From contig NZ_JABUQZ010000001.1 of assembly GCF_013342145.1 (NCBI RefSeq), positions 2,294,001 to 2,358,000 of the forward strand: DNA of 64,000 bases, read 5' to 3'. The position numbers and the translations under genes are program-made. The first letter of the stretch is position 1. Each line of letters starts with the position of its first letter. Below the pieces are notes generated by a model that saw only the letters and a program-made list of their open reading frames with translations, did no database searches and was not told where the DNA came from. Source of the DNA: Haloterrigena gelatinilytica. GTDB lineage: Archaea > Halobacteriota > Halobacteria > Halobacteriales > Natrialbaceae. Positions 17,963 through 27,261 of the stretch are shown piece by piece.

Positions 17963-19416
17963 CGTCCGAGTTCGTTGAGCAGGCGGTCGAATCCGATCGT
18001 CATGACCGAGCCGGTCTCGTCGCGCATCGGAACGCGATCGCCGTTCTCGTTCTCCGTCGTCTGATAGTAGACGGGGTGAATCTCGGCGCCGGCGGTCTGC
18101 CGAATGAGGCTGTCGATCTGTTCGCTCTGGCGGAGCCGCTGATTGACGAAGTCCTTGAACTCGTCGAACGCGAGGTGGGGTTCGATCCCCTGTTCCTTCT
18201 GGAAGTCCTCGATGAAGACGTCGGCCTTCGTCGCCACGACGAAGATGCCCTTATCGTCGGCCGCCTGGAGAATGCTGAAGTACTCCGAGATGTCGAGCGA
18301 CTCGCCGTTGGCGTACCGTTCGAGGTCGACCAGCAGGATCAGCGTGTCCGCGTCTTCGACGCCGTCCGAGAGCCGTAACAGCGTGTTGTCGGCGTCGTCT
18401 TCAGTGACGGCGCCGGACAGCGCGTCGGGGAGTCGGCTCAGGTACTCGCCCGCGTAGTCGATGCTCGAGACCTTCACGTTCTTCGGGAACGTCGAACCGT
18501 GAACGTACTGGAACGCGAGGTCCTTGATCTCGCCGCGACCCGTCGCCTCGATGAGCCAGCCCTCGGATCGCTGGTCGAGGTTTTCGACCATCTTCATGAG
18601 TTCCTGGCTCGGCTGCAGCGGCGTCTGCTTGGTCGCTTCGTCGTTCCGGCCGCGGTTCAGGGCCTCGAGGTACGCGCCGATGAGGAAGAGGCTCTTCCCG
18701 GAGCCGCGCGGACCGAGAACGAAGAAGTCCTCCTCGGAGTCGTACTGGATGAACCGTCTGACCGTGAGGATGAAGATCCCGCTCAGCACCGCGTTCCGGG
18801 CGAGCCCGTCGGTCTCGACCGAGACGCCCGACGTCTCGGAAGAGACGATCGAGACGCCGTCGGCCGTGATTTCGAAGATCGTCGGATACACGAGGTGCGT
18901 TTCGATCAACGCGCTGACGATGAGCAGGGCGACGATCAGATAGATCCCCTTCGCGGCGCTGCGGAACTCGAGGGCCTGCGCGGTCTGGGTCCGAAGCAGC
19001 TTCCGACCGCCGCCGAGAACGAGTCCGAGCAGGGTGCCGACCGCGAGCCAGCCGAGGTTCGTCATCGATGTGAATTCGATGTTCGGAATGAACAGTCCGA
19101 TCGTCCAGAGGCCGAGCAACGAAATGACCAGGCCGATCCAGAGGAGATACCCCTGCCAGCGCTTCTTCGGATCGATCGTCAACAGGATCAGTAACCCGAT
19201 GAAGATCCCCAGGAGGAAGACGCTCACCCCCTCGAGATCGATCGCGTCGACGAGGAGGTGGAGATCGATCAGCGACCGCGTGAGCTTCCCGTCCTCGTAG
19301 GCCGACCCCAGCATCGTCGCCAGCGGGAGCGTCAGCCCGAGCATGACGACGAAGTAGCCGACCAGCGAGACCTTCTCCCGGTGTCGGTTGAGCGCGGTGA
19401 CCGCGGTGGTGATCAT
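17959..19416 (-). CDS. Polytopic membrane protein with P-loop GTPase-like domain (second gene of tubulin-like operon)
   Basis: A 485-residue protein. Six membrane helices are predicted at about 17-37, 63-81, 90-110, 118-135, 157-172 and 208-221. A cytoplasmic P-loop domain follows: Walker A GPRGSGKS (235-242), a switch-like segment SSIDYAGEY (317-325, DxxGE as in TRAFAC GTPases), LILLVDLER (359-367, hydrophobic strand and Asp) and VVATKAD (393-399, G4-like TKAD). GTP specificity is inferred from TKAD. It resembles in outline the GTPases of predicted prokaryotic conflict systems (the double-GTPase type), but that comparison is from memory. Its start overlaps the tubulin-like stop by 4 bases and its stop overlaps the next start, so the three proteins are made together. 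Confidence 0.85.
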   Translation of the reverse strand: MITTAVTALNRHREKVSLVGYFVVMLGLTLPLATMLGSAYEDGKLTRSLIDLHLLVDAIDLEGVSVFLLGIFIGLLILLTIDPKKRWQGYLLWIGLVISLLGLWTIGLFIPNIEFTSMTNLGWLAVGTLLGLVLGGGRKLLRTQTAQALEFRSAAKGIYLIVALLIVSALIETHLVYPTIFEITADGVSIVSSETSGVSVETDGLARNAVLSGIFILTVRRFIQYDSEEDFFVLGPRGSGKSLFLIGAYLEALNRGRNDEATKQTPLQPSQELMKMVENLDQRSEGWLIEATGRGEIKDLAFQYVHGSTFPKNVKVSSIDYAGEYLSRLPDALSGAVTEDDADNTLLRLSDGVEDADTLILLVDLERYANGESLDISEYFSILQAADDKGIFVVATKADVFIEDFQKEQGIEPHLAFDEFKDFVNQRLRQSEQIDSLIRQTAGAEIHPVYYQTTENENGDRVPMRDETGSVMTIGFDRLLNELGR

Positions 19417-22400
19417 TGCACCCCACCGCTGAACTCGTAGGTCTGATCGTCCGCCGTCGCCCGTTCGTCGGTATCGGTATCGGCGCCGTCGTCGCCGTCC
19501 TCCTCACCAGTCACGGACACGACGTCGACGTACTCGTCTAACAGCCCCTGGACGATGTCGGGTTCGTCCTGGAGGTAGAAGCCGACGTCGTCGTCGCTCT
19601 CCATGTTGAGCATCTCGTTCCGTCGGACGTAGTAGCCCTCCTCGAGCCCGTGGTTGTGGTGGATGAGGATGTCGTCGCCCAGTTCGGACCAGCGCTTCTC
19701 GTAGCCGGAGCGGTAGCCGTCGGCCTGAACCATCTTCCGCAGGTTGTCGAGGAAGATGCCGTCGATGAACGCGCTCACGCCGATGTCCCAGCTGTCGCCG
19801 ATGTCGTGCTGCCAGGTCGTGTACGGGTTCTCGACGCGGTTGCCGCTCGCGCCGAGATCGAACGCGCTGTTGAACTGGTTCTCGAAGTCGAGGGCGTCCG
19901 GATCGATCTGCTGGACCGCCTGGCTCAACACGCCGACGCGGACCTTGATATCGTTGTACCGCTGTCGGCCCTTGCTGAAGCTCCGCTTCTTGATCCCGGA
20001 GTACTGTTCGTTGAAGACGTTCTCGACGAGATCCTCGAGGGAGCTGTGGACCCGCTGGTTCTCCTCGCGGCTGTTGAACAGGTCGCTGTCGCCGATCCCC
20101 TCGTCGCCGGTCGCCCGGAAGACGTCGTTCGGCTTGATGTTCTTGACGTACACCGACTCGTCGCGCTCGGTCGCGACCGAGCGGGTCGACGTTTCCGCGT
20201 CGTACTCGTTGCGCTTCCGGTTGAACTCGGCGAGACGGTTCGCGTACGCCTCGCGGCGTTGGTTGAGTTCCTCGAAGAGGTCGACCGTCGCCTCGTAGGT
20301 CTCGTACCCCTGCTCGAGTTCCTCGAGTTCGTCCTCGAGGTCCGCCTTGCGCTCCCTGACGTCGTCGGTGCCGCCGATTTCGGCTTTGAACGCCTCGCGA
20401 GCGATCTCTCGGAGGCGACCGAAGTCGGCGCCGTGATCGAGTTCCGATTCGATCTCGCGGCGGCGGTCCGCGCCGAACGACTCGAGTCGGTGGGCGAGTT
20501 CGTCGACGATCTCGTCCTCGAGTTCGCGCGTTCGCGCCTGCAGTTCGTCGAGGAGCGCGCCGTCGTCGTACTCGACCTCCGCGCTGAACGAGGAACCCGG
20601 CGGACCGACGCTGAACACGCCTCGCTCGTCGAGCTTGTTCTTCTGGACGCGGAAGTTGCGGTGGGCCTCCTCCTTCGCCTGCTCGGTCTTTCCGGACCAC
20701 GGCGTGAGCTTTTCGATGGTCCCCGCCTCGGTGTTCATCGTCAGGGCCGCCTTCCGCGTCTCCTTGAGGGCCGCTATCGACGTTTCGATGTCGCTGCGCT
20801 GTTCGTGAAAGTCGATCCCGACGCGGTCGAGTTCGGTCTCGATACCGTCGAGTCGCTGGGTGATCTCCTGGGTCGAGACCTGATCGACGTCGGTGTCGTT
20901 TCGAGCGTTGACGGTCTCCGAGACGAACTGCTCGAGTTCGCGCGTCAGCGCCGAGAGCTCGCTGCGGACGGCCTCGACGTCGACCGCCTGGTACTGCTCG
21001 AGCGTCTGGGTCACGTCGCGTTCCCAGTCGCGAACCTTTCGGTCGATCTCCTCGGCCTGCTCCTCCTCGAGTCGCTCGAGTTCCTCGACGGTCTCCTCGA
21101 GTTCGTCCTCGAGTCGGGCTCGCTGGTCGGAGATATCGGAGAGCTGCGTCTCGAGGCGGTTGAGTTTCACGCCGGGGTTGCCGCTGCCGTCGTCGTTGTT
21201 GATGAGGTACTCGACGGCGTCCCTGACGCGGCTGTCGTCGATCGACTGCTTCTGGACGAGCAGTCGGTGTCGCTGGACGATCGCCTTCAGGTCCGCTTCG
21301 AGCGCTTCAGCGAGGTTCTCGTCGATGTTGTCGACGAACCGCCCGGCCTGCTGGCCGGCGGTGTCGACGGCGCGGAGCGACCCCGAGATGATGTCGATCC
21401 GCTCGGAGATGTCCTCGCTCTCCTTTTCGGCGTCCGAGATGATCTCCGAGAAGATCGAGACCGACTCGTACTCGAGTTCGTTGAACAGTTCGAAGTCGAG
21501 CAGCGAACGGAGTTCGTCGAACCGCTCGTTCAGGTCCGCGCGGTCGAGGTCCCGGAGGCCCTCGCCGCTGGGGCCGTCGTAGTGGTTGTCGAGGAACCGT
21601 TCGATCTGCGTGTAGATGTCGCGTTCGGCCTGCACGGCTTCCTCCTTGGCCGAGAGGATCTCGCGAAGGGCGGTCCGTCCCTCGTTGATCGCTTCGACGT
21701 TGTACCGGAGGATCTGGGGGATCCCGATCGTGAACGGCGCGTACGTCGGCGAGTCCGCGAACGGGTCCTCGGTGCCGACGGTATTGTAGTAGGCGGCGAT
21801 CAGGTAGACGATCGCTTCGTCGAACTCCTGTAACAGCTGGCCGTTCTGGATCTTGTTCCCGCCCTTGCCGTCGAAGCCCGTCGGATCGATCGGCAGGAGG
21901 ACGCGATCCTTGAACGCGGGTTCGTCGATCAGGTTGAGGTACTCGAGTTCCGAGAGGGCGGCGAAGGCGTTGGCGTTCTCTCGGATCCCCTCGGTGTGGT
22001 TCGGGAGGATGCCGAACAGCGTGATCTCCGCGGTTCGCTGTTTCTTCTGGAGGTGGCGCGCCAGATCGATGACGATCCCGGAACCGGTGCCGCCGCCGAG
22101 TCCGGCGAGAACGGCGACCTTCCCCTTGTCCGGGAGGTCGATGTAGGTCGACAGCTCGTCGTCCTCGGCGTAGGCCTTGTAGTACATGGCCTTCCCGAGC
22201 CCTCGCTTCCGGACGACGCCGGTCGCGAAGTCGAGGTTCTCGTTGATGTGCTGTTCCTCGACCCACCAGTCGTTTTCGTCCATCCCGTTCCCGGCCGCGA
22301 TCCGCGGAACCGCGGTCTCACCGATCAGATCATTCTGGTCGTTGAGCTGGATGTTCCGGGTGATCATCTTGTACTCGATCGAGACGTCGCCGGGACGACC

Positions 22401-22637
22401 GGTTCCGGTCTCCCGGAGCTCCGATTTCAGCGTCGCGACCCGTTCGCGGATCTCGGCGATTCGCTCCCGATCCGAGTTCTCCTCTTCTTCGGCCGTATCG
22501 AGGATCGTTACGCGCACGGACTGCGGATTCGGTCGCGGCTGCAGAATCTCGCGAAGGACCCACTCCGATTCGAGTAGTTCCAACGCGATCTGCTTTCCTG
22601 CACCCCCGACTGAGAATATTCGCTCTGGTAAATTCAT
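19413..22637 (-). CDS. Giant tubulin/FtsZ-superfamily protein with coiled coils (Tubulin_2-like)
   Basis: A 1074-residue protein. The N-terminal 330 residues carry tubulin-superfamily landmarks: SVGGAGKQIALELLES (first nucleotide loop), VAVLAGLGGGTGSGIVIDLARHL with the GGGTGSG signature at 181-187, and ITLFGILPNHTEGIRENANAFAALSEL, matching the segment after the T5 loop. I could not recognise the T7 catalytic aspartates. Long coiled coils follow (for example QRARLEDELEETVEELERL), then a conserved C-terminal globular region (YTTWQHDIGDSWDIGVSAFIDG) and an acidic disordered tail. The length is about three times that of FtsZ or CetZ. The Met 12 codons upstream overlaps the TATA box at 22676-22683, so this start is preferred. 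It probably polymerises or assembles with GTP and works with the two membrane proteins coded downstream. Confidence 0.88.
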   Translation of the reverse strand: MNLPERIFSVGGAGKQIALELLESEWVLREILQPRPNPQSVRVTILDTAEEEENSDRERIAEIRERVATLKSELRETGTGRPGDVSIEYKMITRNIQLNDQNDLIGETAVPRIAAGNGMDENDWWVEEQHINENLDFATGVVRKRGLGKAMYYKAYAEDDELSTYIDLPDKGKVAVLAGLGGGTGSGIVIDLARHLQKKQRTAEITLFGILPNHTEGIRENANAFAALSELEYLNLIDEPAFKDRVLLPIDPTGFDGKGGNKIQNGQLLQEFDEAIVYLIAAYYNTVGTEDPFADSPTYAPFTIGIPQILRYNVEAINEGRTALREILSAKEEAVQAERDIYTQIERFLDNHYDGPSGEGLRDLDRADLNERFDELRSLLDFELFNELEYESVSIFSEIISDAEKESEDISERIDIISGSLRAVDTAGQQAGRFVDNIDENLAEALEADLKAIVQRHRLLVQKQSIDDSRVRDAVEYLINNDDGSGNPGVKLNRLETQLSDISDQRARLEDELEETVEELERLEEEQAEEIDRKVRDWERDVTQTLEQYQAVDVEAVRSELSALTRELEQFVSETVNARNDTDVDQVSTQEITQRLDGIETELDRVGIDFHEQRSDIETSIAALKETRKAALTMNTEAGTIEKLTPWSGKTEQAKEEAHRNFRVQKNKLDERGVFSVGPPGSSFSAEVEYDDGALLDELQARTRELEDEIVDELAHRLESFGADRRREIESELDHGADFGRLREIAREAFKAEIGGTDDVRERKADLEDELEELEQGYETYEATVDLFEELNQRREAYANRLAEFNRKRNEYDAETSTRSVATERDESVYVKNIKPNDVFRATGDEGIGDSDLFNSREENQRVHSSLEDLVENVFNEQYSGIKKRSFSKGRQRYNDIKVRVGVLSQAVQQIDPDALDFENQFNSAFDLGASGNRVENPYTTWQHDIGDSWDIGVSAFIDGIFLDNLRKMVQADGYRSGYEKRWSELGDDILIHHNHGLEEGYYVRRNEMLNMESDDDVGFYLQDEPDIVQGLLDEYVDVVSVTGEEDGDDGADTDTDERATADDQTYEFSGGVQ

Positions 22638-22675
22638 ATGACAGTCGTTATCGTCTGCAAATTCAGTCCACATGA

Positions 22676-24180: not shown

Positions 24181-24897
24181 TTACTGCTGTTCGCCGCCTG
24201 CTACGGTCACCGTCGCGTAACAGTTGCCGCTCGAGAGTTCCCAGTCGACGACCTCGAGCGCGCTGGCCTCGAGGGCGGTCTCGAACTCGTCGGGCGCGTA
24301 GATGTGGTAGAAGCGATCGACGGTCTCGCCGCCGGGGAGGGTCCACTCGACGGCGGTGTCGAATCCCTCGTCGGCGTCGAAGCGATCGTGGGCGGTCGAC
24401 CACGCGCTGACGAGGGCGCGGCCCCCCGGCGCGAGGACTCGCGCGAGTTCGTCGAGGCTGTCGCGTCGAGCGCGTCGGGTCGGCAGGTGATGCAGCGTCG
24501 CGACGTAGACCGCGACGTCGACGCTGTCGTCGGCCAGCGGCAGCCGTCCGGCGTCGCCCTGGCAGAGCGCGACCTCGAACCCGCGCTCGAGGGCGCGCTC
24601 GCGCCCGGTCTCGAGGAGGCCCCGGCTGGCGTCGAGGCCGACGACGGTCCCGCAGTGATCGGCCAGCAGTTCGGCGTGCCGACAGTTGCCACAGCCGAGG
24701 TCGAGACCGACCGCGGACTCGTTCCCGTCGGTCTCGAGGCCGCCGGCCGCGTCCTCGACGAACGACTCGACTTCGGGCCAGGCGTACTCTCGCGTGGACG
24801 CGAAGTGGTCGGCGATGCGGTCGTAGGTGTCGCGGACGGCGGCCCGTCGCTGTGCGTCGGCGTCGTCCTCGAGGTCGGACTCCTGCTCCTCGGCCAT
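24181..24897 (-). CDS. Class I SAM methyltransferase, Trm9-like
   Basis: A 238-residue enzyme. SAM motif I is LDLGCGNCRHAELLADH, motif II VGLDASRGLLETG, then LCQGDAGRLPLADDSVDVAV, and LHHLPTRRARRDSLDELARVLAPGGRALVSAW. That last block is closest to the Trm9/ALKBH8 methyltransferases, which finish wobble-uridine modifications on tRNA with Trm112 as partner. The Trm112-like protein in this window (37.3 kb) is consistent with that. The start MAEEQESDLEDDADAQRR is where the family begins; the frame continues upstream into a palindromic repeat and is spurious there. The substrate is inferred; it might be another small molecule or rRNA. Confidence 0.85.
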   Translation of the reverse strand: MAEEQESDLEDDADAQRRAAVRDTYDRIADHFASTREYAWPEVESFVEDAAGGLETDGNESAVGLDLGCGNCRHAELLADHCGTVVGLDASRGLLETGRERALERGFEVALCQGDAGRLPLADDSVDVAVYVATLHHLPTRRARRDSLDELARVLAPGGRALVSAWSTAHDRFDADEGFDTAVEWTLPGGETVDRFYHIYAPDEFETALEASALEVVDWELSSGNCYATVTVAGGEQQ

Positions 24898-24940
24898 CGT
24901 CGGTGTTCGTCGGGGAACGCGCAAAAACCGTTCGCAACGC

Positions 24941-25055
24941 GAAAGCCCAGACACGCTCGACCGTTCAGGATCGAGCGTGTCTGCCCCTTTCAGTCCCACC
25001 GAAAGCCCCGATCCGCTGGCGCCGGCGCCAGCGGATCGCCCCTTTCAGTCCCGCC
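24941..25055. repeat. Two-unit palindromic repeat element
   Basis: Two adjacent modules have the same frame: GAAAGCCC, then an inverted repeat, then GCCCCTTTCAGTCCC[A/G]CC. In unit one (24941-25000) the arms AGACACGCTCGA and TCGAGCGTGTCT are perfect 12-base complements around a 10-base loop. In unit two (25001-25055) the arms GATCCGCTGGCGCC and GGCGCCAGCGGATC form a perfect 28-base palindrome with no loop. The stems are unrelated in sequence while the flanks are conserved, so selection acts on the frame and on base pairing. The element lies between the Trm9-like gene and the pilus platform gene. It is not a CRISPR array. Confidence 0.85.
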
Positions 25056-25161
25056 CGTGCCGGGTGGCTGGTCTGGCCACCGCGGATGGATCCGAAGCGA
25101 CTGCCGTTGAGCGGGAGCGAGGCTCCCGCGAGGTCGGCAAGCCGTCCGTCTCGCCGGACTG

Positions 25162-27261
25162 TCAGACCACGACGGCGAAGAGGAGGATCGAGAGGCCGAC
25201 CATGACGGCGGCGTGTTTCGCGCCGCCGCGGATATCGCCCGTGCTCAACTGGCCGGCGATCAGCCCCGAGAGCAGCCCCTGAACGAGCGTCGCGTGGTAG
25301 AACAGCGTGTCGTAGGTCGCCCGGTCGGAGTCCGAGAAGCCGCCGAGTCCGTCGACCGCGGTGGGTCCGGTGGCGGTCGCGGTATCGGCTCCCGCCGCGG
25401 GCAGGTTCGGCAGCAGAGACGCCGCGAGCACCGCGATGATGAACAGGAAGACCAGATACGAGACGTAGACGACGATGGTGTACTCGACCATCGCCTGTTT
25501 GCGCTCGCGCTCGAGTCGCCGGTCGGCCGCGGCCTGCCGGGCGGCGATCCGAAGGACCGTCGCGAGGTTCCCGCTCGCGTTCATCGCCTCGGTGAGCAGG
25601 GTCACGACGCGGGCGGTCGTCCGGGTCCGCAGCCGCCGCTCGAGTCTGGCGAACGCGGTCTGGAGGTCGGCGCCCCACTGGACGTCCGCCCAGACGCGGT
25701 CGAGTTCGGCGCCGAGCGGTCCCAACTCCGAGCCGCGGACGTGGTCGACCGCCGAGACCAGCGACGTGCCGGCCTCGTTGACGCTCGCGAGTCGGTCGAG
25801 CAGGTCCGGGACGGCCGCCTCGACCGCGTCGATCCGGCGGCGATGACCCTCGTAACAGATCGCGAAGCCGGTCAGGACGACCAGCAGCCCCACCGCGATC
25901 GCGTCGTCGATCGCCGCGACGTCGAACCCGCCCTCGAGCGCCGCCGGGAACCGCCACAGCACGCCCGCGAGGGCGATCGGGACGGTAAGCGCGAGCGACA
26001 GCGCCGGGCGCTCGAGCAGCGTCCGAATCGGATCCCCGAATCGCTCGCGCAGGCCGCGGAGCCGCCGGTAGTACCGGAGCCGTTCGACGTTCGGACGGGC
26101 GTCGGCACCGACGGCGCCGCTATCGACGGCCCCGCCGTCGGGCCGCGCCTCACGCGCGATGTCTGCCGGGAGGTCCGGCGACGGAGCCTCGCCCGCGTCG
26201 CTCGCCGCCGCGCCGGGCGTCAGTTTATCGGTGACGACGCTCAGGTAGATCACGAACGCGAGGTTGCCGACAGGTAGGATGAGGTAGATCAACGCCCGCA
26301 GCGGCTCGAGCGTGTCGCCGACGGCGATCCCGATGACGACGAGGATCGTGATGAGAAAGAGCGGGCCCGCGACCAGCACCGTCACGTAGGCTTCGGCGAG
26401 CGTCGAGAGCAGTCCGAGGGTCCGTTCCTGCTGGGACTCGGCTTCCTCCTGGTAGTCGCGATACTGGCGCTCGAGGAAATCAGAGAGGCTGTGGCCGCTC
26501 TGGAGGACGCTGACCAGGTTCTCGCTGAACTCGCGGAACTGGGGACTCGGCGAGCGCCGACCCATCGTCTGGAGGGCGGTGACCGCGTCGACGCCGAAGG
26601 TGTCCATGTTGCGGACCGCGACGTCGAACTCCGCGGCGGCCTCGCCGTAGGTCGCCTCGTGAGCGGCGACGATGCGGATCGCCTTCGGAAACGCCATCCC
26701 GCTGCGCGAGAGGGCGTAGAGGAAGGCGACGGTCGAGGGCAGCGCCGTCTCGATCCGGCGGGCGCGCTCGTCGGCGACGTAGCGCGGGTACCACCAGCGG
26801 AGCCAGTACGCGCCGCCGCCGGCGACCGCGCCGAGCGTGAGACAGGAGGCGAGCAACAGGCCGAACAGTTCGACGAGCGACAGCGAGGGCACGCCACCGA
26901 GGTTCGCGAGGAACGCGAGGGCGCTCGGCAACGCCGCCCGGAGCGTCTCGGGATCGACCGAGAGCACGAGCAACAGGCCCCAGATGACGTAGATGCCGAG
27001 CACCGAGCCGAGGACCGCGAAGAGGCCGGCGTAGCAGACCGTCATCGCGCCGTACTCGCGGTAGGTCACCGGCGCGTGGGCGGCTCGCAGCGCCGCCTGC
27101 CTGTCGGGATGTTCGTCGCGGAACTCGTCGACGTACCCGCCGAAGAGCCCGATCGCGGCCCGCGTCAGCCGCCGGTCGACGCCGTCGTGGTATCTGGCCG
27201 CGAGGACGGGCACACAGCAGAGCGCGGCGAGCGCGAGCGGCAGGAAGGTAGATACCGACAT
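25162..27261 (-). CDS. pilC: Type IV pilus/archaellum-type membrane platform (T2SSF, PilC/FlaJ-like)
   Basis: A 699-residue membrane protein with two T2SSF domains. The first is at about 165-300 (ARRIETALPSTVAFLYALSRSGMAFPKAI) and the second at about 475-600 (VPDLLDRLASVNEAGTSLVSAVDHV). Each is followed by paired membrane helices, and further helices occur at the N-terminus. A linker of about 50 acidic residues separates the halves (GEAPSPDLPADIAREARPDG). It is the membrane base on which the ATPase assembles pilin subunits. The ATPase gene ends 5 bases upstream, so they form an operon. No pilin or prepilin peptidase gene is nearby. Archaellum genes are absent, so an adhesion-type pilus is more likely. 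Confidence 0.92.
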   Translation of the reverse strand: MSVSTFLPLALAALCCVPVLAARYHDGVDRRLTRAAIGLFGGYVDEFRDEHPDRQAALRAAHAPVTYREYGAMTVCYAGLFAVLGSVLGIYVIWGLLLVLSVDPETLRAALPSALAFLANLGGVPSLSLVELFGLLLASCLTLGAVAGGGAYWLRWWYPRYVADERARRIETALPSTVAFLYALSRSGMAFPKAIRIVAAHEATYGEAAAEFDVAVRNMDTFGVDAVTALQTMGRRSPSPQFREFSENLVSVLQSGHSLSDFLERQYRDYQEEAESQQERTLGLLSTLAEAYVTVLVAGPLFLITILVVIGIAVGDTLEPLRALIYLILPVGNLAFVIYLSVVTDKLTPGAAASDAGEAPSPDLPADIAREARPDGGAVDSGAVGADARPNVERLRYYRRLRGLRERFGDPIRTLLERPALSLALTVPIALAGVLWRFPAALEGGFDVAAIDDAIAVGLLVVLTGFAICYEGHRRRIDAVEAAVPDLLDRLASVNEAGTSLVSAVDHVRGSELGPLGAELDRVWADVQWGADLQTAFARLERRLRTRTTARVVTLLTEAMNASGNLATVLRIAARQAAADRRLERERKQAMVEYTIVVYVSYLVFLFIIAVLAASLLPNLPAAGADTATATGPTAVDGLGGFSDSDRATYDTLFYHATLVQGLLSGLIAGQLSTGDIRGGAKHAAVMVGLSILLFAVVV

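Follow-up and report, generated by a model that had tools for sequence, protein, structure and literature searches.

What kind of element places the same flanks around two unrelated perfect palindromes? The question arose at positions 24941-25055 of the window, the whole 64,000-nucleotide stretch of Haloterrigena gelatinilytica DNA that was analysed. There the original prediction described two units with conserved flanks around different inverted repeats, and all of these features were located: GAAAGCCC at 24941-24948 and 25001-25008, GCCCCTTTCAGTCCC[A/G]CC at 24983-25000 and 25038-25055, a perfect inverted repeat at 24948-24960/24971-24983 (13+13 including the flanking C:G, with a loop of 10 nt) and a perfect 28-nt palindrome at 25010-25037. 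While the features were as described, the description missed that the minus strand is the functional one, that GAAAG:CTTTC pairing outside the palindrome creates a GGG/GGG internal loop, and that a degraded third copy is present.

Read on the minus strand, both units have the order GGGYGGGACTGAAAGGGGC, stem, GGGGCTTTC; each begins with GG(Y)GGGACTGAAAGGGGC, continues into a perfect stem and ends with GGGGCTTTC or GGGCTTTC. Unit A (25001..25055, minus strand) consists of GGCGGGACTGAAAGGGGC at 25055-25038, the 28-nt palindrome as its stem at 25037-25010 and the closing GGGGCTTTC at 25009-25001, and its fold comprises the GAAAG:CTTTC helix, the GGG/GGG loop and a 13-bp stem. Unit B (24941..25000, minus strand) consists of GGTGGGACTGAAAGGGGC at 25000-24983, the 13-bp stem at 24948-24960/24971-24983 with its 10-nt loop, and the closing GGGCTTTC at 24948-24941. 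When the sequences were folded singly, GAAAG:CTTTC was predicted for unit A; unit B preferred another pairing of GAAAG.

From its sequence and from comparison with the full copy in genome G001 (L019), the stretch 25063..25081 was recognised as a remnant of the central dyad, GGTGGC-n7-GCCACC, which separates divergent cores in full-length copies. Beyond it, at about 25084..25160 on the plus strand, GGATGGATCCGAAG... in place of GGGTGGGACTGAAAG... probably represents a degraded third core, judging from an alignment made by eye with L018/L019 and the orthologous sites. Comparison of the orthologous sites of congeners places the whole insertion, of ~220 bp, at about 24940..25160. It is bordered by a gene for a class I SAM methyltransferase (Methyltransf_11; 24181..24897, minus strand), whose start is 43 bp beyond unit B, and by one for a TadC-like T2SSF protein (25162..27261, minus strand), whose stop codon adjoins the insertion edge. 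Elsewhere in the window, a 1086-aa ORF (19413-22673, minus strand) combines a tubulin/FtsZ-like GGGTGSG motif with long coiled coils.

With just two copies in the window, the palindromes might be put down to chance, or the pair to a local tandem duplication of no wider significance. This reading has virtually no prospect of being correct, being excluded by the excess in the window, the copies in the genome, the distribution among haloarchaea and the covariation described below. With up to 2 mismatches allowed, GGGACTGAAAGGGGC occurred twice in the window compared to 0.11 expected (18-fold over expectation), and the genome-wide search that had been proposed found 9 exact copies of this 15-mer in the species' own genome, in agreement with the view that the repeat is not random. 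Among 61 relatives the exact 15-mer was present in 33; in the set of 293 haloarchaeal genomes it was present in 155, representing 52 of 87 genera, with a maximum of 67 copies per genome, a figure that counts exact matches of the key motif only. The reversed 15-mer, used as a control, had 0 matches in all 293 genomes. The suggestion that such a string is frequent in haloarchaea was thereby borne out.

A search of species genomes with the motif gave matches exclusively on haloarchaeal contigs, and the exact 19-mer was absent from the viral contigs scanned. A covariance model derived from 40 of the copies and run against 120 genomes of the phylum found matches confined to this order, among them at least 24 candidates in genomes that lack the exact 15-mer and that we call Halorubrum-like, the genus name being presumed. 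The Rfam covariance models gave no match at the gathering threshold (sub-threshold matches were to microRNA models only, by chance), the repeat was unannotated in the plasmid records examined, and the 15-mer was not found in the literature searched, where queries on MITEs, REPs and structured RNA brought up just the Haloquadratum PATE/MITE work and ribosomal leaders. The hairpin repeat is a real, widespread and previously undescribed element of salt-loving archaea. Many haloarchaeal genomes contain tens of copies and about half of the species sampled have it, yet it is not in Rfam.

Comparison of 164 extracted copies showed that the frame is constant and that the interior takes one of four forms: a plain hairpin of 41-67 nt, which is the type in the window; a type A domain (GACGYAAGCACC...GGAGCGCAGCGAG), found in the majority of copies and about 94-128 nt long; a type B domain (CGACCYCTAT...ATATGTCGCT); or no stem at all (GGGACTGAAAGGGGCCGGGGGCTTTC). 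Types A and B may bear additional hairpins, which bring them to as much as about 300 nt. Cores stood alone, followed one another in direct tandem or diverged in pairs from a ~36-bp dyad. Some copies had unusual surroundings. In G106 (L249-L268), tandem ~28-nt hairpin repeats (CGGTGACACAATCCACCG...) preceded the core, and downstream of it the 3' half of the stem was repeated in tandem units of 53-60 nt. In L246 and L247 the core was interrupted by a small element inserted within the CCCCTTTCA|TCAGTCCC frame, with the ends TAGTGATTATTGCG in L246 and a related palindrome in L247. On two related plasmids of laboratory strains, Haloarcula hispanica pHH126 (L309, 1500-1620) and H. marismortui pNG500 (L311), type B cores occupied a conserved position next to an RPA-like gene of the SOSS B family. 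The tandem 3' units were also considered as a CRISPR-like array, a candidate that was rejected since repeats and spacers could not be separated.

Only 6 of the 164 copies were called inside ORFs, the remainder being intergenic. Such a location, together with a downstream gene on the same strand in 92 of 144 copies, would suit a cis-acting element (a transcription terminator, an insulator or the 5' leader of the adjacent gene), but single copies within tandem gene pairs were co-directional in 22 cases and anti-directional in 15 (p 0.32), and divergent, tandem and convergent sites were occupied at background rates. Moreover, poly-T was absent after the hairpin, and genes around different loci appeared unrelated, an impression gained without a systematic survey. 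A cis-acting role is therefore highly improbable, and a terminator or leader was rejected for lack of an orientation bias.

If the stems varied freely in sequence but not in pairing, compensatory changes should be evident. RNAalifold applied to 40 long copies of type A gave 29 pairs, 20 of them with double compensatory changes. Paired cells amounted to 93.4% as opposed to 74.0% in shuffled alignments and double changes to 206 as opposed to 62, with 0 of 500 shuffles reaching the observed values; all five covariation measures exceeded each of the 500 shuffles and all slid controls. The covariance analysis that the original prediction had proposed thus upheld its suggestion of covarying stems. 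Even the helix GAAAG:CTTTC, otherwise invariant, is replaced by CAAAG:CTTTG or CGAAG:CTTCG in the Halorubrum-like copies. In the outer stem, the GGGACTG strand contained 1935 Watson-Crick, 53 G-U and 9 A-C pairs. Such an excess of G-U over A-C is expected only if one strand folds while single-stranded, which argues that the fold of one strand is selected. The excess was weaker in the inner domain (17:12).

Pairing was also kept at homologous loci. At the site orthologous to that in the window, G000, G002, G003 and G004 differed by compensated changes (for example GATCC...GGATC and GAGCC...GGCTC), and unit B carried compensated changes in G002, G003 and G004, with its loop inverted in G002. Since template switching can also restore perfect palindromes, the differences at this site, taken by themselves, carry less weight than the G-U excess and the inner domain. 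Judged from the sequence comparisons, the fold of one strand is under selection and would act as RNA or single-stranded DNA.

One explanation for such selection is a host-functional, structured non-coding RNA family whose transcript is selected and which spread by hitch-hiking on mini-transposons. The elaborate inner domain, in which unpaired bases are invariant and short helices covary, the asymmetry between G-U and A-C, and the retention of the frame in copies that have lost their TIRs would all be accounted for. Nevertheless, the DNA upstream of the fold was 26-37% AT, with no AT-rich promoter, a single upstream gene cannot read both members of a divergent pair, the orientation relative to neighbouring genes was unbiased, and a match in Rfam was lacking. 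We consider a host RNA unlikely, though the most plausible of the alternatives.

Evidence of mobility came from the ends of some copies. A TIR pair, GGTASTGTTCAGATAAG...CTGAACASTACC, was found at about 16 frame-1 loci, 192-495 bp apart, with a single core or a single divergent pair between the two repeats in each case. The same TIRs bound a ~697-bp insertion sequence with 8-bp duplications that encodes a 211-aa protein matching PF13610 (DDE_Tnp_IS240, IS6 family). They also bound elements of 216-217 bp (L202, L205 and L207) and of 372-382 bp (L203 and L204) that had perfect 8-bp duplications and carried a variant core, TGGCGGA[A/C]TGAAAGGGCGAG...GAGGGCTTTC, singly or as a divergent A+B pair. 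Mini-transposons of 0.2–0.5 kb with the fold inside were present in several lineages. Clean target duplications were not found at the frame-1 copies with TIRs, and neither a recognisable TIR nor a target duplication was seen at the window copy or at most Natrialbaceae-like copies.

The window locus itself is polymorphic for presence and absence. Only 2-4 bp separate the flanks in G005, while ~220 bp do so in G000, G002, G003 and G004; in G001 there are 421 bp, which include two long cores in divergent orientation. As G005 diverges most among the congeners here, we infer that the others gained the insertion rather than that G005 lost it. A second locus (L006) also differed between species, with 56 bp replaced rather than a clean empty site. 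Strand-specific pairing, mini-transposon ends with target duplications in relatives and the empty orthologous site together accord with the suggestion of an element that is mobile or RNA-structured.

Movement appears to be mostly old, since near-identical copies were rare and the best identity of copies within a genome was mostly 0.7-0.95. Some genomes in which the repeat reaches roughly 50 copies or more (G134, G211, G280, G279 and G132) had no PF13610 match, which indicates that IS6 is not the present mover everywhere. IS6 and Y1 transposases were missing from some of the richest genomes, where the mover may be gone. Both IS6 and RAYT/Y1 were rejected as general drivers because their presence did not track copy number. 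Conservation is higher in the core than in the TIRs, so that pure IS6 parasitism falls short as an explanation.

The reading that we favour, with moderate confidence, is that the window pair is the worn remainder of a non-autonomous mobile repeat that was associated with IS6 and whose single-strand fold is selected. An intact element would be 0.2-0.5 kb long and contain one core, or two divergent cores around the ~36-bp dyad. In each core, one strand would adopt the fixed frame (GGGYGGG-ACU, the helix GAAAG:CUUUC and the GGG/GGG loop), which would bear the freely varying stem and optional inner domains. An IS6-family transposase may move, or may have moved, the units in trans, and the fold may be kept because a protein or the life cycle of the element itself needs the RNA or single-stranded DNA form. 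The window copy would have lost its ends and would now comprise two simple-hairpin cores in tandem and one decayed core. Such elements would form a class of mini-transposons conserved in the inner fold and not in the ends, and the cores, supported by covariation, offer targets for RNA-seq and pull-down in laboratory strains of Haloarcula and Natrinema.

Known repeats share some of these properties. MITEs, SMRs and PATEs have been described in Haloquadratum walsbyi (PMC3119063). The haloarchaeal MITEs of IS6/ISH14-like elements are likewise short, transposase-free and dispersed, with the TIRs of autonomous insertion sequences and, on some copies, 8-bp duplications. Their interiors, however, are normally unconserved or, in any one family, homogeneous. 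In the hairpin repeat, by contrast, the haloarchaea as a whole preserve the interior fold, stem sequence and ends are variable, and a TIR is missing from many copies. PATEs, which have no TIRs, belong to IS605. The hairpin cores had no TnpB zinc-ribbon signature nearby; a TnpB omega-RNA or PATE was rejected on the absence of that motif from 1.09 Mb around 159 loci, in a motif search only. The small mobile sequences ERIC/RU of enterobacteria (for example PMC2759123) resemble the repeat in being about 100-170 bp, intergenic, MITE-like and presumably moved in trans, but differ in sequence and hosts; the repeat described here has a variable stem in an invariant frame.

Bacterial REP/BIME/REPIN sequences are closer in layout, being intergenic, with a conserved head and hairpin, frequent inverted pairs and tens of copies. 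By analogy with REP elements and their RAYT proteins, or with integron attC sites, the fold could be a hairpin of single-stranded DNA that an HUH (Y1) transposase or some other single-strand recombinase recognises, and the conserved head with its variable hairpin, the inverted pairs with a short linker, the many intergenic copies and the favoured strand are in keeping with this. Yet the fold here is much larger and has inner domains, nearly all stem positions covary on both sides, and some copies have IS6-type ends; the TIR forms with 8-bp duplications suggest a double-strand DDE enzyme. Y1 transposases were uncorrelated with the repeat, Y1_Tnp being absent from the complete genome G134 (65 copies) and present in copy-free genomes. 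Replication-strand polarity, examined on the full copy positions of G106 and G132, was rejected in both. A REP-like origin is accordingly quite improbable, less so than a cis-acting role.

The sequence after the core showed a further regularity. For ~40 nt after CTTTC, G was depleted at every third base (13.7%, compared to 30% in the other two phases), in phase with CTTTC and in all clades and the variant elements (for example L270 and L289, which are Halorubrum-like, L046 and L010). The phase spread of G was 0.174, while the largest value in 5000 phase permutations was 0.073. In Halorubrum-like copies the rhythm extended to 75 nt, with 7% G in the depleted phase. Translation of the tail was rejected, as the GC bias of haloarchaea at the third codon base was absent and copies contained in-frame stops. 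In the frame whose third position is the G-poor base, 35 stops were counted, compared to 37.1 expected from composition; the other forward frames had 43 and 67, compared to 58.7 and 121.5, a deficit that may reflect how rare TA generally is in these genomes. Conventional coding of the tail is unlikely, and the stop counts would be insufficient by themselves for this judgement.

A bolder reading, which we rate as a long shot, is that of a haloarchaea-wide mobile RNA or single-stranded DNA in which the GGG/GGG loop, framed by GGGYGGG, would form a joint between two helices, possibly a potassium-stabilised G-quadruplex, and a protein or the ribosome would read the tail in 3-nt steps. If true, mini-transposons would carry RNA of a new kind, serving as a guide, a ruler or a means of delivery. 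The length of the tandem 3' units was a multiple of three in 28 of 41. Insertions on the 3' side of cores were also mostly multiples of three.
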